Source: Isoetes taiwanensis (taxonomy: Eukaryota > Streptophyta > Lycopodiopsida > Isoetales > Isoetaceae). Taken from it: a stretch of DNA of 64,000 nucleotides. The stretch is from contig JAJEKV010000058.1 of the NCBI GenBank assembly GCA_021234155.1, forward strand, positions 1,110,987 to 1,174,986. Direction: 5' to 3'. The translations under genes were made by a program, and so were the position numbers. Below the pieces are notes generated by a model, which did no database searches, was not told the origin of the DNA, and was given only the letters and a program-made list of their open reading frames with translations. How positions within the stretch are numbered: the stretch's first letter is position 1; the number at the start of each line of letters is the position of its first letter. This document shows positions 15,908 to 31,361 of the stretch, in pieces.

Positions 15908-16425
15908 TTGCCACGTGGCAAATTTTAGCACACTTCTATTTCCATACAAAATATTCATTGTTTTTGTGGAGTTTCTCTGCTCCAGCCATCGAATCGCTGA
16001 CACGTGGCACTGTTCTCCACGTTATTGTTCTCCCATTTAGGGACGCTTCATGTCACCGGCCTCAAAACTTATGTTATTATGTTAATATGACGTCGGAACT
16101 GCATGTGAATACAGTTGGAGAGGCGCCTCGAGGTCACCTTTGCCCCGCCTGTAACTGCTCTAGCAGTTCGGGGGACGAACAGCTCAGACGTCGAACCGGC
16201 CGTCTCAAATGAACTGCATGTGAATACAGAAGAAAAATTTACATGTGAGGCGCCTCTTAGTGGGCTTTTCCTGCCGTGTCAACAGGTTCCTATATACAGA
16301 AAAATAGAATAGAACATGTGCCACTTGTAAGCTTAAATCTACAGAAAAATAAAATAAAACGTGTGCCACGTGTAAGCTACCTATTTGCTCATAAAGGAAA
16401 CGACGGCACCAAAGGTAATATAAAC
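15908..16425 (+). promoter_or_regulatory. Promoter region with three G-box/ABRE elements
   Basis: Upstream of the KFB gene there are three CACGTG cores: in a 14-bp perfect palindrome TTGCCACGTGGCAA (15908-15921), in GACACGTGGCAC (near 16000) and in GCCACGTGT (16366-16373). The first two contain ACGTGGC, the ABA-response core bound by plant bZIP factors. A TATA-like TATAAAC lies at 16419-16425, about 100 bp before the ATG. Regulation by ABA or light is inferred from these motifs only. Confidence 0.6.
16086..16375 (+). repeat. Short duplications inside the KFB upstream region
   Basis: AACTGCATGTGAATACAG occurs near 16096 and 16211, each followed by GAGGCGCCTC. TACAGAAAAATA then A-rich, then TGTGCCACNTGTAAGCT occurs near 16294 and 16340. 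The second duplication creates one CACGTG from a CACTTG relative. Confidence 0.75.
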
Positions 16426-16523
16426 GTCCATCAATTTTCTCAGAAATCATGTTTCCATTTCTCACTTGTACACCCAATTTTTGTGCTTAATAGCTCTGAT
16501 TTTAGTTTGACAGGCAAGTGCAA

Positions 16524-17582
16524 ATGGAGGATCTAATTCCAGGGCTTCCAAATGATGTAGGGATGCTATGTTTAGGCCGGATTTCGTATCAAAGCCATGC
16601 TGCGATGCAGGGAGTATGCAAAAAATGGAAGGAATTGACCAACAATCCGTCGTATTTCAGCTACAGATGCGCGCAAGGCTTCACCAGCAAAGCGATCTGC
16701 ATTCTACAGGCATCTAAACCCACTGCACAAAAAATCGGAACCCTGCCCACGTTCCGTCTATGCATGCTGGATCCAAAGAATGAAGCTTGGACATGGCTGC
16801 CCTCCATACCCGATTTCCCGCAAAGTATGCCCCTCTTCTGCAAATGCGAATCTGTCAACGGAGAAATATTTGTGATTGGAGGCTGGCATCCAGATACATA
16901 TGATCCTATTTCTTCTGTCTATGCCTTCAATTTTAGCTCCGGATTGTGGCGCAGAGCCGCTGATATGCTCACTCCTCGTTCCTTTTTTGCTTGTGGAGTT
17001 TTAGACGGCTGTATTTTAGTTGCAGGAGGGCATGATTCTGATAAAAATGCCCTCTCCAGTGCAGAAATTTACAACCCAATTCTGAATATGTGGAAGCCCC
17101 TTCCTGACATGAGCCAGGGCAGGGATGAAGCCAAAGGAATTGTTTCACACGGCAAATTCTATGCCGTTGGTGGGTACCCAACTCAATTCCAAGGCGGATT
17201 TACAGAGAGTGTAGATATATTTGATCCAGAAGAAGGCTGCTGGAGAGTTATGGAGGATTTCTGGTTTAAAAGGGCTGCTCCTAGTACCGCATTTGCTTGG
17301 AATGGGGATATTTTTGCATTCCGAGGTCTGGATTTGGTGAATTTTGATGTTAGGATGAAAAATTGGCGCGCTGTAGATGCGATTTCTGGCGGAGGAGAGG
17401 TTAAATGCGTGAATATAGTAGGGGATGAATTAATTGTGATGGTTAGAATAGGAGGAGAATTTATTCGAACGCTTGTTTATACGAAGAAAAAGGAATGTGG
17501 AAAGAGCGCGGAGTGGAGAATCTTCGAACCGGAGAAGGACTTTTGCGGTCTGCCTGAATTTGCATGCACTGTCGAAATATGA
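16524..17582 (+). CDS. F-box/kelch-repeat protein (KFB, KMD-like)
   Basis: A 352-residue protein without introns and the only clearly intact gene here. Residues 2-45 are an F-box (EDLIPGLPNDVGMLCLGRIS then VCKKWKEL), which would bind SKP1/ASK in an SCF ubiquitin ligase. Residues about 110-270 carry kelch repeats: IFVIGGW, ILVAGGH and FYAVGGY, with trailing LWRRAADM, MWKPLPDM and CWRVMEDF tryptophan motifs. The C-terminus (270-352) has weaker kelch-like strands. Length and opening match plant KFBs of the KISS ME DEADLY group, known to mark type-B response regulators or phenylalanine ammonia-lyase for degradation; the substrate here is inferred, not shown. I chose the ATG at 16524 because it begins MEDLIPGLP as in relatives; the in-frame GTG six bases earlier is not a normal eukaryotic start. 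Confidence 0.93.
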   Translation: MEDLIPGLPNDVGMLCLGRISYQSHAAMQGVCKKWKELTNNPSYFSYRCAQGFTSKAICILQASKPTAQKIGTLPTFRLCMLDPKNEAWTWLPSIPDFPQSMPLFCKCESVNGEIFVIGGWHPDTYDPISSVYAFNFSSGLWRRAADMLTPRSFFACGVLDGCILVAGGHDSDKNALSSAEIYNPILNMWKPLPDMSQGRDEAKGIVSHGKFYAVGGYPTQFQGGFTESVDIFDPEEGCWRVMEDFWFKRAAPSTAFAWNGDIFAFRGLDLVNFDVRMKNWRAVDAISGGGEVKCVNIVGDELIVMVRIGGEFIRTLVYTKKKECGKSAEWRIFEPEKDFCGLPEFACTVEI

Positions 17583-18960
17583 ATTCCAGAAATTGCCCAC
17601 ATTGGCTTCTTGATTTAATCCCACAAATCTGACTATTGATTCATTCCATGCAACTCGTAAATTCCATATGAATCAGTTGATTTAAGTACTTACTGTTGTT
17701 CAATTCTTCTTGGTGATTTTTAAGTATTGTTACGAAAACGAAACTATTTCAATCCATTTCTTGCAACCCTTCCTCATCTCCACTACTAAATCCCTATATT
17801 GCAAGTTGTAGCATGCTTCTACTCCTAACTTTTAGCACCAATATAAAAGTCATCTAATGTTGGATCTAATTTATCTTGCTCTCTATCCCCTTCATCTTTT
17901 GAGCTATGTTCAAATTATCTCGGAAGAGTTTGCAATCCCTTTCTTTATATCACCTGACATCAGTGATGACTTTAAGGTGTGAAACTTCGTAAAGTTGCTA
18001 TATTTTACCATTTTTTAAAATCTGGATTCGATGGTTTACTAGGATGCGTACGCTAAAGAACTTCATAAAATCGCCAAAATCTGATATTATTACATCCCAA
18101 TTATAGCAAATTCGCCAAATTAATGGACATTTTACAGTAAAAACCTCAACTTTATGGTAAAACATCCAATTCTACTAAATTCATTCCTATAAAAATGTTG
18201 GAAAAATAGGAAACAATCGCCACCATTTCTATAGTTTAGAAGCATCTAGAGGATGATAAAGTCATCACTGCCTGACATTTGGTATAGTGGTGAATCACTA
18301 GTTTAGATATGAAGGGATTTGAGTTCCATAGTTTGGATGAGTTCGTGCAAAGTCGATTGCTTGTGGGGAATTGACTCATGTTTGAGCATCTCATGGACCT
18401 AATGACCTTAAGTGAATGTAACAAAAATGCTCTTTCTTCCTTCTTACTATCCTTCAAAATTATACTCACCATATGGCCTTTAGAGTAAAACATGGGCAAA
18501 ATTGGCTGCCATGTGAAGGGATGAGCAAAGCTTTTGTCTTGTACAAGTTGACCTTCTTGCTAGTTGCCTCGCAAGGTATAAGATGTTATTGCACAACACG
18601 ACACTCGTCGACAAAAACATGTATGGAAGGTGCATTAGGCAATCTTTGCCATAATTTTATATATTTCACAAAAGATAAGATAAGATAAGATAAGATAAAA
18701 AGAGTGAAGTGACATGGACGTGTTTTGGTGCCAAACGAGTAGCCAATAAACCATTAGAATGATGATGTGGTAAAAATAGTAAAATAGAGCATTTTTTTTT
18801 TCTCACGGCTAGTGTAGATGGGCCAAACGCATTGATGACAACTATTATGGCATTGTGGCCCAAACACCCTCTATATGTTAAAAAATATTGGCCCCATCAA
18901 AGAAGTCAATATAAGATGTACCAATAATATGGATTCATCAACAATATGACTCATCAACAT
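17583..18960. other. Downstream intergenic, no recognised gene
   Basis: AT-rich 3' flank of the KFB gene. No canonical AATAAA was found close to the stop. A short (GATAA)n run lies near 18675-18700. Nothing else supported. Confidence 0.5.
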
Positions 18961-19018
18961 AAAGCATTCCATAGATTTTGGATAATAGAGTGTTGTATTG
19001 GGGAATGGAAGGGAGGAG

Positions 19019-19088
19019 CCCCTTTCCGGTTCGGAAAGGGGGGCCCCCAACCGGTGGCAGCCGGGGTCCCTTCCAAACCGGAAAGGGG
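19019..19088. repeat. GC-rich hairpin, 13-bp perfect stem
   Basis: CCCCTTTCCGGTT (19019-19031) is the reverse complement of AACCGGAAAGGGG (19076-19088); a third related piece, TTCGGAAAGGGG, lies between them. It stands out as GC-rich in AT-rich surroundings, 140 bp before the recombinase ATG. It could be a foldback remnant or a 5' leader structure. Confidence 0.75.
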
Positions 19089-19227
19089 CGACCCCCTTTC
19101 ATTCCTCAACAAAATGGAAGTTTGGTCGTTCGAAATTTTGTACTTTTTGTTTTTGTTTTTTTCTTTTGTTGGCACAGTTTTGTCATTTTCGAGAGGAAGA
19201 CTGCGACATTCTTGGAGAAGCTCGGCC

Positions 19228-21631
19228 ATGGCTCCAGGGAGCGGCCCTGCTTCACGGCCTCCTCTTCCTCCTTCTACACAGAAATATGGCCTTCATAGGG
19301 CGAAGGCCATTGCGCGCCAGCAGATGAAGCATGCTGAAGGCATTGATGTGATTTTTCTTGCATCCTTTTTTGTTTTTCGGATTCTTTTAGTAATGAATGG
19401 TTGTTCTTCAGCAAATGGTACTCAAGGAGTTATATTTCAAGGTTTAGTTACTACTTCAGGTATTTTTTTTAATTTTAGACCTCATTTCATTGATTTCATT
19501 CTTTCTAATGGAAAGTTTATGATCTGTAGGTTTTCAGGGCATGCTTCCATCAACGTTGAGCGATTCTGAAGGTAGGTGCATGATTCCTTAACATGTTTGT
19601 GTTTTCTTGAAGATTTTACCAGTTAATGGTCCTTAAATAGTGTTTATGTTCATGCAGGTCAGAATATGATGTCTTTGACAAATAAGAAGTCCGATCTCAT
19701 GTCTTTGATGAACCAGAAGTCTGTTGCCATGAAATATCCTGGTAAGTTTGTCATTTTCTCTTGCTTTATTGTGCACAAATTTCTGTAATAGAGAGTTCTT
19801 ATGCATGGCAGATGCTAACAACGTGGTATTACACGAAAAAACTAGTTCATCTACTTTGGAAGGTATGATTTTAGTTGAATGATGACAGTTTGTGGAATTT
19901 TAACAAGTAGTTTGATGCATGCAGGTATCAATGGAAGCTCTATTACTCCTATGGAGACATTTTGTGCTTCAAGTCTGTTTTTTGTTTTTGTATTTTAATT
20001 ACAATAGGTCATTTTTTCTAGAAGAAGTAGCTGCAAATAGCGCTTCATTTGAAGCTCCCTCTTTTAGTCTTGGCTCTTGTGTTGAGAACAGTAAAAAGGA
20101 TAATGGAAAAGACACAAGTATTTCTGTCATAATTTTTGATCAGATTCAGCAAGATCAAGAGAAACCAAGTATTTCTAAGATTAATCCTGGTCGTCGTGCT
20201 GGAAAGAGAGCCTTAAAGATTGGTGGATTTAGGGAATTGGATCCGGAATTGATGGAGAAAGTTAGTGCTTGTGGAAACAATGCATCACAACCTAAGGACG
20301 ATTGGGCCAGGGGTAGGTTTGATGCGTGGAGGTTACATGTTGGGCAGAAAATTGATAGAGAAATAGAAGAGATTCCACTCGACGAGCTTGCTGGAAATGT
20401 GGAGCCATTCTTTCTTTGCGTACAACGGCTTGATGGTGTCAAGTATCCGCCGGATAGGTAAGTTTCTATCATTTTTTATTTTAGTTTGAATATTTCTAGT
20501 TCTAGTATACAAATTTTGAATGTTATAATTTCAGTTTGCAGAATCTTTTCCGAAGTTTTAATAAGATTCTTCGGCGAGCACAAGACATTAAACAGTTGAA
20601 TACTAAGCAGGAAGAAAAGATAATTGATATGTTCCACGATATCAAGTTTTTGAAGGTGAGAACAGCATTGGAAATATCAATGTAGGAGTCTGCTGCCGCT
20701 GGTTTTCTTCCCAAGCATCAGAAGAGTGATATCCTTAGCAAGTCTGATCAGGAGAAGATCTTGGCGCATCCAATGCACCAAGTTAATACTGGTACTGGTT
20801 TGCAGAAAAGGTTTGCATTCTACTGCATGACTAGATTTTTGATCCGAGGTGGACAAGAATTATCCAAGGTTCGTGATTTCCAATTCAATGTTGATAAAGA
20901 TTGTGTTAAGGATTATATAGAATACTGTGAGACTACTAGCAAAAACTGGCATGACGGAATGAATAAATGCAAACCAGAGGATTTTAGAGAGCCCGTTAGG
21001 TGTTATGAGCTTGATGTAATTGATACTTGGAAGCATCTATTGAGTCATCTTCCGCAGTATGAAGTCAAGGACAAGATTGGTGGATGACATGTCTTCTCCC
21101 AGGCTATAAACCGCCCAAAAAAATGGATCTTGTATAATGTCAGTCACGTGTCCAGTAAAACAATTTCTACATGGTTGAAAGACATGGTAGATGTCTGCGA
21201 AATTGAGGGGCATTTTACAAACAAAAGTTGTAGGAATACGGCCATTACACAAATGTCAGTTTCTGGTGTACCAATTGAGGTAGGCATGTCAATTACTGGG
21301 CACAAGAATAAGGACTCATATAAAAGGTATGATCAGAGTGGTGTCGTCGCTAAAGCTTCTGCTATGGTAGGTTATTTCATGTGGTAGGAACTATTCTGAT
21401 TCGTTTCCGAGCAATGCTGAAAATTTAACTGTTGGATTGGCTGGATCTTCAAATTCTGCTGTGAAAGCTGCTGGTTTATATAATCCTTTAAAGGAGATCA
21501 CTAAGTCAGTGCCTATCGAGCTACCAGCTGAAATTGATGATGATTACTGCAAGGACTTGGATACTATCTTGCTGCAAAAGCCAGAATTGAGGCGTTACTT
21601 TCCACTGTTTTCTGCTGATCATATCTCTTGA
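19228..21631 (+). pseudogene. Crypton/DUF3504-type tyrosine recombinase (multi-exon, broken)
   Basis: Site-specific tyrosine recombinase of the family found in Crypton DNA transposons and their domesticated DUF3504 derivatives. A plausible start is MAPGSGPASRPPLPPSTQKY at 19228. Small exon-like pieces with GT/AG edges follow (19658-19741, 19812-19862, 19925-~19970), then 20022-20457 ending PPD and joining 20535 as PPDSLQNLF, the usual family motif. The catalytic domain (20700-21390) shows GLQKRFAFYCMTRFLIRGGQE, SCRNT, TGHKN and YKRY: Arg 20845-20847, Arg 21232-21234, His 21301-21303 and Tyr 21328-21330, the last nine codons after the His. The usual HxxR His is replaced by Lys (KSCR). Breaks: TAG at 20683, TGA at 21085 and a frame change near 21371-21387 before the C-terminal AEIDDDYCKDL. 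Hence a pseudogene unless unrecognised introns remove the stops. Confidence 0.82.
20458..20534 (+). other. Intron inside the recombinase gene
   Basis: GATAG|GTAAGT at 20457/20458 and ATTTCAG| at 20534 are good plant splice sites. Joining them turns GATAG plus T into Asp-Ser and gives PPDSLQNLF, the expected family sequence, so the intron is well supported by the reading frame. Confidence 0.85.
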
Positions 21632-22734
21632 TGGAATTTATTTTCTTATTGTCTACATGTAACTTCCTTGGGTCAATGGCTTTATTGACATTGTTGTGTA
21701 TATTTTGTTTCTCTTCAAGTTAGAGTGGATGATAAGTTTTATATCTGAATTTGGATGAGATTCAAGACCGCTTTTTGGGTTGATAGCTTTTTTTTTTTTT
21801 TGTCAAATTGGATGCTTTACCATTATGTGTGCTGAAATTAGTTTACAACATTGGATGAGTGCGTAATGGATCGAAAAAAATCAAAGGCTACTGCACTAAG
21901 AACTAGAGAGGCTTTCTAGCTAAGTCGAGCTCTATAAAGCATCATCACAAGAAGATTAGAGTAATGCAGGATGAATTGGTGCAAGATGTCCATAATGAGG
22001 TATAAAAAAATGGTGATGAAGAGTGGATAACTCCAGATAGCCAAGAATAATGTATTAGCTTTTCCATCAATAATGTATTAGATTTTCCCCGTTCTTACTC
22101 AAATAGAAGTTGCAATATGAACTTTGTCCAGGTTATTAGCTTGATCCATAATAGGGAAGAGAGGAGTTGTGAGCCAACATAGGAAGAATTGCAAGCCAAA
22201 AAGAGAGCGCCCAATTCTGTTCTAAATCGACTATTTCCCTACGGTGCCAAATTTTAATTCTAATAGTGGTTCATGTTCAGTAAAATTTGGCCTGTCACAA
22301 TTCTCTATTTGGATCAAGATACATTTCTCACGTGGGAGTTTTTTTGTGATTACATGTGCATTTGAGGAGTGCAAATTTACCTCAAAATTTGACTATTGCA
22401 CCTCATCCAATTTCTCTCCGAAAAAGTTTTCGATATAGCTTAAAATACAATCTTTATGGCCCCATACTTGGTTTTGTGACAAAAATGTAGCATCTCTAAT
22501 TTTTTTAGGGAATGTTAACTTGATCCACTATTGATAGACCCCCCATATCTATCAGCTTATTTATATATGTTTTACCATTGTATCTTGACCGCACTCTCTC
22601 ATATTTATCTGTCCCTTCTTATCCTCCTATATATATAATTACTAGAAATTGAATTAGATATATCTATCGTTAGGCCTTTTGCCTTCTTATCCTCCTATAT
22701 ATACAAGTGTTTGCAATATGAGGGACTGCATAAA
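21632..22734. other. Intergenic, no recognised gene
   Basis: AT-rich. Contains a T-run at 21789-21801 and two TCCTCCTATATATA phrases near 22632 and 22690. The phrase TAATTACTAGAAATTGAAT (22637) recurs at 29459, so both may belong to one dispersed repeat. Confidence 0.45.
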
Positions 22735-23545
22735 GCCCAAAGGTTCTATGAAGATTCTCTTAGATTCTCTAAAATTCCATCAAGATTCCCTTAGATTCTC
22801 AAAACTTTTAGGAAGATTCCCAAAGATTCTCTTGAGATTCTTCTAGATTTCCAAAGATTTTCTTAGATTCTTAATGTTCTACAAAGATTCCCCTAGATTC
22901 TTAAGATTATATGGAGATTCCCCTAGATTTTATTAAGATTCTCAAAGATTCTCTAAAGATTCCCCTAGATTCCAAAAAAAAACCCCAAGATTCCTCCAGT
23001 CTCTCCAAGATTCTATCAAGATTCTCCTAGATTCTTCGAGATTCCATTAAGATTCCCATAGATTCTTAAAGATGTTATGAAGATTCCTTTAGATTCCTCT
23101 AGATTCCCAAAGATTCATTTGAGACTCCCTAAGATTTCCTAAACATTCCCCTAGATTCTAAAAGAATACCCCAAGATTCCTCTAGATTCTCCAAGATTCT
23201 ATCAAGATTCGCCAAGATTCTCCAAGATTCTATCAAAATTCTATCCAAGAAGTGCTTGAGATTCCTATAGATTCTCTTGAGATTCCTCTAGTTCCCATAG
23301 ATTCTATGAAGATTCCCCTAGACTCCGCAAGATTCCATCAAGTTTCCTCTAGGTTCTTAAAGATTTTATCACGATTCCCTTAGATTCCCTTACATTCTCA
23401 AAGGTGCTCTCTTGATATTCCCATAGATTCTCTAAGATTATCATGATATTCCTCTGGATTCCCTAAGATCCTATAAAGATTCTCCTAGATTCCCTCAACT
23501 TACCATAGATTCCTTGAAACTCGAACATTCCAAAAAGATTCTTAA
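22735..23545 (+). repeat. Degenerate AGATTC minisatellite
   Basis: About 800 bp built from dozens of copies of AGATTC joined by short pyrimidine- or A-rich linkers, for example AAGATTCCCCTAGATTCT. Spacing is irregular, mostly 11-17 bp, and all frames are closed. It ends abruptly near 23545 where ordinary sequence resumes. Confidence 0.85.
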
Positions 23546-25489
23546 TGCTCGATCATGTTGGCTCCAACTGCGGCAAAATAATGTCAAAGCACCACTCATT
23601 GGAAAGCTCTCGACGAGAGGAATCCAATGGCATGGACCTCACCTCCAATGGCAAGCTACGTCCTTTTGAAGGCGATTAAACAAAAGGAAGCTTCCTAGAA
23701 TGTCCACTAATAAATGCTTTGCCACCTCATTACTTTTTTTTATTAATGAGGGTGCCACCTCACCTCCTTAAAAAAAAAACTAATTTAATATTAAAAAGTT
23801 AATGGCTAGGATCTTTTGATCTAACGGTTAAGATCTGCTACACCAAATTCACTTTTTGGCACCTTCCTTGCACCTTCCCCATAAAAATCAAGGGCTAGGA
23901 TTTCGCCCTCCCCTTTGATCCAACGGTTCACAGATGGGGTGTATGCCCCCATGCATGACTTTTGCATGCCCCCATCAAAATCCAAGGGCTTAAGCTACGC
24001 CACCTCACCAACTTTTTATCCAAGGGCCAAGATCAAAACTTTATATGTAATGTGCTATTTTATGACAACCCCCATGAGTTTCTATATCCTTCTATATATA
24101 TACAAGAATTTAGCTTTACGCTAAGCTGGAAATACCTGGGATTCTGCCAAAATAACTCAATGTCCTAATAAGACGACTTTTAACCAATCTAACAGCTTTG
24201 GCTATTTTTATCTTAAATTGAATACAATTGTCAAATGTGCATTTCAAGCATATAGGAATTTAATATGCTTTATTTACTCGCAATTCATCTCCAAGGTTAA
24301 TGTGGCGGGTGCTTAATATTGTTGCTTAGTTAGCCTACTTCATATTATATTTTATATGGCATGTGCATAATGTTGTCGTGTCTGCCATGATGGTGTTGCA
24401 ACTCTTGCAAAAAATGCAAGTTTGAGATAACAACTTTGAAGTATATTTACTCCCTCAACTTGATTGAGCGATGTTGTATGCTAGATCTAAGGTTGGTAAC
24501 CAATCCATGGATGATGCCAAGATTAAGAACATAGAGCTTTTTGGACATTTTTTAGAGCTAGAGAATGAGATTGTGTGAACTTAGGCAAAAGGTGCAAAAA
24601 CTTGGTATCAAAGATGCTTAATGTAAATGTTGAGGCCTATATTCAATGGAATTGGTCTAGATACTTAGTTTGGATTCTTTAAACTTTGCCAAAATTTTTT
24701 ACATTCTCGTCATGGCTCGTTTAAATTCTTTTGGATTCCATGAGATGCGCCCAATTTCCTTAGAGAGTCTCGTATTATTTCATTTGGATTTCATGAGATG
24801 GGCCTAGATTTAATAACATCTAAGTATGTAAGGGCAAAAAAAAAAAAAAACAAATTTGTCTTCAAAGAAAAACCATTAGGTTGCATAGCTCGGCTAATGA
24901 TAAATATTCAAATATTCAAGGATTCATAGGCACTGGATTTCATTATCTATCAGAATTGAAACCTTAGATGTCAAAATCATTGAGAACGTAATGGCATATG
25001 TGAAATCCATGTAAAGAAGTAGTGCTCTCTGCAATCATAGCGAATGTATTTAGAAAGAATGGATTCTAAATTCTAATGAATGTAAATGCTAAAGGCCTAT
25101 CTTTGCCTTTGAAAAATTGCTCCCACAAAGCCGCCAGACTAGCACAGGCTCTGTTGTCAGAAACATGAAGGTAGTTTTTTGAAGGTAGTTGGGTTTTTGA
25201 CGAGTGGATCTGCATACCATCTACAGACGTTCTAAACCGATATTGTTCTTTGTTGCTAGTTTAAGAGCCAATACAAAATATTCAGATTTTAAATAGCCCC
25301 CAATCTACAATGGAAAATTGGGAATCTAGCATGGGAAGGAGGAAACGAGCGGAAGGCTGCATTCAGTCATAGCCATAAGTATCCATTTTTGCATTTTTTA
25401 TGATTTCCGGAGCAATTGATCAAAAAATCATGCCTGGCACCGTAATCCCAACTCTTCACAATTAATTCTTCTGCGAAATTCCCCCTCTT
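23546..25489. other. Intergenic, no recognised gene
   Basis: 23800-24020 contains repeated phrases such as CAAGGGCTAGGAT / CAAGGGCTTAAG and ATGCCCCCATGCAT / ATGCCCCCATCAAA, with ATCTAACGGTTAAGATC and ATCCAACGGTTCAC of the type common at plant repeat ends. No gene seen. Confidence 0.45.
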
Positions 25490-29310: not shown

Positions 29311-29617
29311 TACATAATATGCACGCTCCTAGATTGATATTTACATTTTTCACAAATTTCTAGCATCAAAAGCTTTATTTTAGTCTTGAGCACTAGCAAA
29401 GTACAATTTCTAAAACTTGCAAAGGGTGCACAGGGCGCCGGCGTTGTACATATTAAGATAATTACTAGAAATTGAATCTTATATTATAAAGTTTTACCGT
29501 AAGTGTTGGACCATGCCCTAATTTAGATGGCTTAGATTATCAGATTGCATCCGAAGGCCAAGATTTATTGCATGACGTCTCACCACTGTGATTGGTTATT
29601 GCTTTGATCTCTTAAGA

Positions 29618-31165
29618 GGAAAGGGAAAAGGAAAAGGGAAAGGGAGGATGAAAGGGAAAATGACGGGTAAAAAGGCACGAGAAAACAGGGAAGAGGGAAA
29701 ATGGAAGGGAAAAAAGGCATAGGAAAAAGGGGAAGTGGAAAAGGGTGAGGAACGGGAAAAAGAAAAAAAATAAGATAAAAGAAAAAGAGGAGGGAGGAAA
29801 AGGAAGGGAAAAAATGCAACGGGAAAAGGGAAAGAGGGAAAGGGTGAGGAAAGGAGGAAAGGGGAAGGGAAAAGGGGGAAGAGAAAAATGATTGGAGAGA
29901 CGGAAAAAAGGCATGGGAAAATACAAAGGGAAAGGGAAAACGAAAAAGAAGGCAGAAAGAGGAAAAAGGAAGGGAAAAAGGGCACGAGGAAACGAGAGAG
30001 GAACATGGAAAAGAGGAAGAGGGGAAGGGCATGTGAAAAATTTGAAGAGAAAAAGGGTGAGGAAAGGAAAAAGAAAAGAAAGGGAAAAAGAGCATGGGAA
30101 AGGGAAAAAGAAAAAGAAAAAGAAAAAGAAAAAGAAAAAGAAAAAGAAAAAGAAAAAGAAAAAGAAAAAGAAAAAGAAAAAGAAAAAGAAAAAGAAAAAG
30201 ACGGATAGGGAAATGGGAAAAGGGAAAAGGGGAAGAGGGTGGGAAATGAGGAAAAGAAACACGTAAAAAAGGTAAGGAAAAAGGAATGGAAAAAGATATG
30301 GGAAAATAAAAATGGAAAGAGAAATGGAAATGGAAAGGGGAAGGGTGAGGAGAAAAGGGAACATGGAAAATGAGAAGGGATGAAAAAGGAAGGCAAAGGA
30401 AAAAGAAAAAGGGAGGCAAAGAGGGGGGGAGGGGAGAAAATGGAAAAAAGGAGCGAGGAAAATGGGAAAGGGGAAGATGAAATTAGCACGGGAAAAATGG
30501 AAAGAGGCAAAGGGCGAGGAAAGGGAAAGAAAGCAAGGGAAAAAGAGCATGAAAAATGAAAAAGAAAAAAGAAAAAAGGGAATAGAGAAAGGGGAAATGG
30601 AAAAGGGGAAGAGGGTGAGGAAAAGAGGAAAATGAGCACGAAAAAGGGTGGGAAAAAGGAATTGAAAAAGGCATGGAAAAAGGGAAAGGGAAAGAGAAAA
30701 GGAAAAAGAAGAGGGAAGGGAAGGAGGAAAAAGACACGGGAAAAAGGTGGAGAAAGGATGAAAAAGGAAGGAAAAAAAAGAGATGGAAAGTGGGGGAGGA
30801 AAAGGAAAAAGGGTACAAGAAAAAAGGGGAGAGAGAAATGGGAAAATGGAGGGCATGGAATAAAGAGGAAGAGGGTGGGGAAAGGAGAAAAGGGGCATAT
30901 GAAAAAGATGGAAAAAAGGAAACAAGAAAAAGGCATGAAAAAAGAAAAAGGGAAAGGGAAAAAAAAAAGAAAAGGAAGAGGAAAGGGAAAGGGAAAGGGA
31001 AAAAGGGCGCGAAAAAATTAGGAAGAAAGGGGAAAGATTGAAAAGGAAAAAGTTCATCGAAAAAGGGAAAGGAAAAAATGAAAAGGGAAAAAGGAAGGGA
31101 AGGGAGAAGGGGGTTAAAAAAAAGAAAAAATGGAGAAGGAAAAAAGAATAGGAAAAATGAGAAAA
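29618..31165 (+). repeat. 1.5-kb polypurine tract
   Basis: Almost every base on the + strand is A or G, made of irregular GGGAAA/AAAAAGG words with rare C or T (often in GGCATGGG or GGCACG). The purine asymmetry is extreme and continuous. Very long open frames in it translate as Lys/Glu/Arg or Phe/Ser/Pro/Leu runs and are not genes. Confidence 0.95.
30103..30199 (+). repeat. (AAAAAG)n microsatellite inside the purine tract
   Basis: About 16 uninterrupted hexamers of AAAAAG. It is the most regular part of the tract and the likely site of length variation. Confidence 0.95.
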
Positions 31166-31361
31166 GAAAAAAAAAGAAAGTGCGTAAGAGAATGATGAAA
31201 ACAGAAAACGCGAGATAGAGTAGAAGACAAAGGAAAGGGGAAGCGTGTCGAATACACAAAATCCATTATAGCCAGCAATGCTGGACTTAGTTTCTATTAT
31301 ATTAGATATGAATAGGAGTCTGAGATGAACAGGTTTCCGTCCACATGGGTTCCCAACTTAT

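Follow-up and report, generated by a model that had tools for sequence, protein, structure and literature searches.

Cryptons, which reportedly go back to Goodwin 2003, share with the transposon family described here a tyrosine recombinase (YR) that is the sole enzyme of recombination identified, element ends with short direct repeats, the lack of a target duplication and the existence of non-autonomous derivatives. The terminal direct repeat of Cryptons comprises 4-6 bp and is similar across copies; in the family found here it is mostly the 3-bp sequence TGT, which is extended in some copies, and in a second lineage (lineage II) only GT. In the available sections of their 2011 survey, Kojima and Jurka tabulated Cryptons from fungi, animals and stramenopiles only (PMC3212892). 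According to a further study, Arabidopsis has no described Crypton (PMC7385966), and the repeat table of a plant survey contains 24 'Crypton' fragments of 1.7 kb in total (PMC6294377). In searches of one open-licence literature library, no description was found of a land-plant Crypton or of a Crypton with an internal complementary region (ICR). The present family differs from Cryptons in its land-plant host, its high copy number and the presence of a hairpin and an ICR; furthermore, it carries a lysine in place of the histidine of the HxxR motif, and no GCR1_C domain was found.

A second group of relevance are the DIRS1-like retrotransposons. According to the available part of the literature (PMC3266345), the two halves of their ICR match the two element ends and overlap by 3 bp, and insertion occurs without target duplication; the present family shares these features. 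However, the ICR of DIRS1-like elements is located at the 3' side, while it lies at the 5' side here; their inverted terminal repeats span tens to hundreds of bp, in contrast to inverted arms of only about 12 nt; and the present family retains introns and was not found to contain a reverse transcriptase (RT). According to PMC3537659, no complete DIRS1 element of the ALOG type is known from any streptophyte. The DUF3504 genes (ZMYM2/3/4, QRICH1, KCTD1; PF12012) share remote homology with the family through the Isoetes locus L030. The DUF3504 domain lacks most catalytic residues (PMC3212892), whereas the family has kept them and does not match PF12012. Judged by its sequence, the family appears to be Crypton-like at its ends and DIRS1-like in its ICR signal.

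The window copy and its surroundings

The window is the whole stretch of 64,000 nucleotides analysed here, taken from contig JAJEKV010000058.1 of the lycophyte Isoetes taiwanensis. Copies were searched for in 1,658,258,908 bases of the same genome, distributed over 1110 contigs, and the sites discussed are numbered L009 to L070. The recombinase gene of the window is a dead copy of a large transposon family. The remnant extends from 18994 to 21622 on the forward strand, to which all features belong unless stated otherwise; its 5' end is intact, and approximately 0.6 kb of the 3' end is missing. Position 18994 is the point at which homology to the unlinked copies L010, L012, L015 and L019 begins. 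The 5' terminus TGTAT (18994-18998), which includes the terminal direct repeat TGT, belongs to the sequence TGTATTGGGG, which opens copies whose flanks are unrelated; L011 and L013 also start with it. Homology of the window to other copies stops at 21622; five copies (L010-L013 and L016) continue beyond this position, which was therefore rejected as the 3' end of the element.

The putative first coding exon starts with an ATG at 19228 and is provisionally assigned to 19228-19340, on the basis of similarity to N-terminal stretches of L010, L011, L013, L020 and L021. The exon encoding the core-binding part (20022-20457), the start of which was deduced from a splice acceptor, is separated by a GT-AG intron (20458-20534) from the main exon (20535-21622), which encodes the YR catalytic domain and a C-terminal extension. 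An earlier sequence-only reading of the locus had proposed a join at 20457/20535 that yields PPDSLQNLF. This join holds, with the GT donor at 20458 and the AG acceptor ending at 20534, and all 11 copies inspected, among them that of the window, have an intron at this position. The same reading had recognized an Arg, Arg, His, Tyr set, which was likewise confirmed: catalytic Arg I (20845-20847), Arg II (21232-21234), the histidine of the TGH motif (21301-21303) and the nucleophilic tyrosine (21328-21330) lie in a single frame, the tyrosine follows nine codons after the histidine, and the set is invariant in six other aligned copies. The lysine replacing the HxxR histidine is encoded at 21223-21225. 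A chance occurrence of this set is very unlikely in view of its invariance and of the Pfam match of the C-terminal piece described below. Two in-frame stop codons, TAG (20683-20685) and TGA (21085-21087), are located within an exon that is continuous and open in L020, L021 and L028, and they are therefore lesions; introns as an explanation for both stops were rejected on the same grounds. The damage further includes a +1 frameshift near 21367-21371 and the loss of the last 0.6 kb or so. The stops, the frameshift, the 3' loss, the upstream start at 18994, the element ends and the ICR all go beyond what had been read from the window initially. Of the initial proposal, the Crypton-like YR gene, its split by an intron and its location in a plant genome stand; the gene is, however, one dead copy of a high-copy transposon and not a single gene.

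The neighbouring gene at 16506-17582 encodes Kelch repeats and an F-box, in agreement with the Kelch/F-box (KFB) gene predicted near the recombinase gene. The stretch from 16149 to 24865, which contains this gene and the transposon remnant, is a segmental duplication with about 98% identity to another contig (L009). The Kelch/F-box neighbour and the duplicated block place the gene in plant DNA and argue against a contaminant. Contamination, which had been raised as a possible objection, is also very unlikely as the source because the copies are dispersed over many contigs, one of them 53 Mb in length, and because pattern scans of viral and prokaryote collections yielded no confirmed relative. 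Two further features of the window are a degenerate tandem array with periods of 41 and 62 bp directly after the remnant (22736-23514), and a 1.6-kb tract (29600-31200) with about 91% purines on the plus strand, which contains a GAAAAA array at 30063-30201.

The recombinase family in the Isoetes genome

In searches against Pfam, the C-terminal piece of the window gene (21088-21384) matched Phage_integrase (PF00589) with an E-value of 2.5e-7, above the cut-off, and the other four of the five window pieces gave no credible match. All six aligned copies matched PF00589, with a best E-value of 8.9e-8 and with L020 over and L021 under the cut-off, and all six matched PHROG integrase families at up to 4e-10. 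A XerA-like recombinase model of NCBIfam was hit by four of eight members, far below the cut-off. Searches of PDB profiles gave no match for query A1 and two weak, unrelated chains for query A2, and a single-sequence AlphaFold2 model of the recombinase reached a pLDDT of 35. GCR1_C, the domain of CryptonF, was not detected, and no Pfam match was obtained for the C-terminal extension. Arg104, Lys230, Arg233, His256 and Tyr265 (alignment numbering) are invariant in the six aligned copies, and lysine replaces histidine at the HxxR position in every copy that is readable there. The catalytic R, R and Y of a Crypton-type tyrosine recombinase are hence retained, with lysine in place of the HxxR histidine. 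The damaged copy L027 has a histidine instead of Arg104.

The sequence-only reading had labelled the gene as DUF3504-type and suggested a profile search, which speaks against the label: PF12012 is matched neither by any of the five pieces of the window gene nor by any of the six aligned copies, and the family matches PF00589 instead. DUF3504 as a direct label was therefore rejected. L029 and L030 are two loci of this genome that pass the PF12012 cut-off, and L030 can be aligned with the window's family, the best E-value being 4e-18 for a search database of these two loci only; DUF3504 thus seems to be a remote relative of the family, linked to it through L030. Both L030 (contig C606) and L029 (contig C31) are further intron-rich YR genes.

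With a DNA query, for which 40 of 112 candidates were scored, 46 matches including the window itself were retrieved; they comprise near copies with 84-98% identity and a group at 67-71%. A protein query derived from L020 yielded 152 matches, L020 included (139 of 2017 candidates scored); these cover divergent lineages, with identities down to 34% among the matches listed. At least 25 of the listed matches, again including L020, extend over no fewer than 250 of 278 positions and are free of stop codons there, as counted by eye for one exon rather than for whole genes. Selection was analysed for L011, L020, L021, L022, L024, L027 and L028, with the stops of L024 and L027 masked. Between subfamilies, that is in 20 of 21 pairs, pS ranges from 0.71 to 0.85 and pN from 0.13 to 0.24, which shows that the recombinase protein was under purifying selection while the subfamilies diverged. 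Ratios are not given for the divergent pairs because dS is saturated in 19 of these 20; the close pair L020/L022 has a dN/dS of 0.43. L011 and L013 are 98-99% identical and have different flanks, so that movement is not ancient, and we infer that the family may be active to the present day.

A second deep lineage (L066-L069) has the same layout of the 5' end as the main family. In L067-L069, glutamine replaces the histidine (TGQ for TGH), and an intron is apparently located just before the tyrosine. The two second-lineage proteins scanned, L068 and L069, do not match PF00589, and L069 reaches PF12012 with an E-value of 0.01, below the cut-off. A YR frame with 46% identity is present at L070 (C1070:7727000-7733000), with no convincing inverted ends nearby; it may have arisen by truncation of a copy or by domestication.

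Element ends, target sites and the internal complementary region

Complete elements that were read are 3.0-4.2 kb long. The 5' end common to copies with unrelated flanks, which corresponds to window position 18994, is TGTATTGGGGAATGG, and the copies running past 21622 finish at GACCCAACTTCCATTTTGT; three further subfamilies have ends of the same kind. Among 24 insertions with both flanks, TGT is present at the 5' end of 22 and at the 3' end of all 24, the two 5' exceptions being L049 and L058, which carry other bases. L012, a duplicate of L011, is not part of this set, and neither are L010, for which no 3' end was found, and L015/L016, which insertions have split. The terminal repeat extends to TGTA or longer in nine of the 24, where the target agrees, and no target duplication of more than 2 nt was found among them. 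The target carries an A at position -1 in 19 of 30 cases (p 2.6e-4) and at position +1 in 20 of 37 (p 2.9e-3). A natural empty site in cis was identified at L041, where a neighbouring repeat unit contains a single TGT within a 20-nt match; it is the sole empty site found. Lineage II (L066-L069) shows only GT as shared terminal bases, the ends of L066 being uncertain.

When up to two mismatches are allowed, the genome contains 139 sites with the motif of the 5' end, against 3 for the control, and 1015 sites with that of the 3' end, against 19 for the control; each complete element has the 3' motif twice, once in inverted orientation. Fifteen non-autonomous derivatives were read, of which eight are 644-874 bp and seven 270-302 bp long.

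When the two ends are joined at TGT, inverted arms come to lie around a 13-nt spacer, CCCAAATACCAT/ATGGTATTTGGG in the L020 subfamily. In this subfamily, 12 of 12 arm positions are inverted (0 of 20000 shuffles), followed by ten of 12 in L011 (39 of 20000 shuffles) and nine of 12 in L027 (80 of 20000 shuffles); the arms are weak in L021 (30 of 20000 shuffles) and L026 (83 of 20000), with eight of 12 each. The fixed arm spacing is the best or tied in nine of ten copies, and in L026 another spacing scores 9. The predicted layout of the joined ends is as expected of a YR recombination site.

In all ten complete copies tested, the element's own ring junction recurs in inverted orientation a short distance inside the 5' terminus. 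The core of this inverted version is exactly 2 nt short in nine of these copies and 1 nt short in L022. The match scores 30-33 against the own subfamily and 7-18 against other subfamilies, with a shuffle maximum of 15 (1000 shuffles for each of four subfamilies). The inverted junction is also present in four copies of the second lineage (scores 41-57), where it is 1 nt short and, in L066, poor around the core. All 15 non-autonomous copies have retained it, the weakest being L046 with a score of 22 against a shuffle maximum of 11. It occupies positions +26 to about +166 from the 5' end; in the window, it is found at 19091-19127 on the reverse strand, with 19109-19127 complementary to the 3' end of complete copies; the match was tested in these since the window copy is devoid of its own 3' end.

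The inverted junction copy adjoins a 5' terminal hairpin, which extends from 18998 to 19109 in the window. The DNA fold of 18994-19140 has a z-score of -5.2, and none of 200 shuffles was equally stable; the corresponding values are -14.2 for L020, -6.9 for L021 and -11.9 for L068, the stem of which comprises 33 bp. The stem begins 4-5 nt from the terminus in three of four folds, and in L021 the first three bases are paired too. From these sequence features, we identify the hairpin-adjacent inverted junction copy as an ICR of the DIRS1 type.

How the family may move

The complete elements L020 and L021 were scanned for other enzymes of mobility. Their 20 open reading frames of at least 80 amino acids on both strands contain neither an RT nor a DDE transposase, and PF00589 is the only Pfam match below E 0.05. 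RT, RNase H and methyltransferase of a DIRS1-like Pol were not found in the two elements, and the Dam-type methylase model PF05869, which we take to cover the DIRS methylase, has no match in the genome. The retained PPDS/LQN intron in 11 of 11 copies, the lack of an RT in L020 and L021 and the missing PF05869 match speak for movement of the family as DNA.

The findings could also be explained by ordinary Cryptons in a new host, whose recombinase would act on double-stranded ends and in which hairpin and ICR would be incidental, for instance operator sites. The restriction of the coding capacity to a YR, the short terminal repeats and the absence of a target duplication are as in described Cryptons, so far as the accessible parts of PMC3212892 and PMC8969392 go, and the position of the ICR, directly upstream of the gene, would suit an operator. 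However, the ICR follows the ends of its own subfamily and has been retained in all 15 non-autonomous copies, whose length does not suffice for the gene; in addition, described Cryptons are generally low-copy in the available accounts, with the short direct repeat as their sole distinguishing feature. We therefore regard this explanation as unlikely. Even less credit is given to a derivative of DIRS1-like retrotransposons that has lost its RT and is copied via RNA by an RT acting in trans. ICRs overlapping on a 3-bp circular junction together with the absence of a target duplication are indeed hallmarks of DIRS1 in the accessible text of PMC3266345, but the introns present in every copy inspected, the lack of an RT in two whole elements and of a PF05869 match in the genome, and the 5' instead of 3' position of the ICR make this origin quite improbable. 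Moreover, Piednoel et al. describe green plants as lacking DIRS1 and treat damaged copies from Plantae as uncertain (PMC3266345).

The 3-bp repeat resembles a target duplication and the ends show some inverted similarity, as would be expected of a DDE transposon that duplicates a TGT target and carries the YR gene as cargo, as in MarCry. TGT is non-palindromic, however, and always has the same orientation to the element, and none of 24 insertions ends in ACA. A target duplication or a TIR transposon was rejected since the 24 insertions contain no duplication of more than 2 nt and the 20 scanned open reading frames no DDE domain, which leaves a DDE transposon highly improbable. An intron-split gene beside a Kelch F-box gene could be taken for a domesticated host gene or a contaminant; this is barely credible for a copy with two stops and a frameshift, which has many dispersed relatives, one on a 53 Mb contig, and lies in a segmental duplication that includes the F-box gene, though intact single-copy relatives may exist at other loci of the genome.

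The explanation we favour, and consider probable, is that the window contains the dead copy of a lycophyte DNA transposon family that encodes its own YR, is excised as a ring joined at TGT, inserts at aTGTa and carries an ICR that would act in cis. The recombinase of the element would cleave and recombine TGT at both ends, thereby releasing a ring whose junction, two inverted arms around TTGTAT, would serve as the recombinase site. Insertion of the ring would then take place at an aTGTa target, which would not be duplicated. The ICR, either single-stranded or extruded, could hold both ends side by side, as has been proposed for DIRS1. Such a cis-acting role of hairpin and ICR in keeping the ends together is the most likely one; an ICR that serves as a folded-strand recombination substrate, or as a decoy whose arms are incorrectly spaced, in most cases by 11 nt rather than 13, would fit as well. 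Whether these elements represent a distinct kind of RT-less YR transposon native to land plants, in which the DIRS1-type ICR and the 5' hairpin reflect an obligatory folded-strand step, is a more far-reaching proposal, which we consider possible yet rather doubtful. If it is true, such a kind would be the RT-less counterpart that is predicted if DIRS1 elements arose by the capture of an RT by such an element, or if the reverse took place.

This lineage, abundant in a land plant and with uninterrupted frames, broadens the range of YR transposons and provides plant material for tests of movement. The combination of a coding capacity restricted to a YR with an end signal of the DIRS1 type is furthermore relevant to the relationship between Cryptons and DIRS1 retrotransposons.
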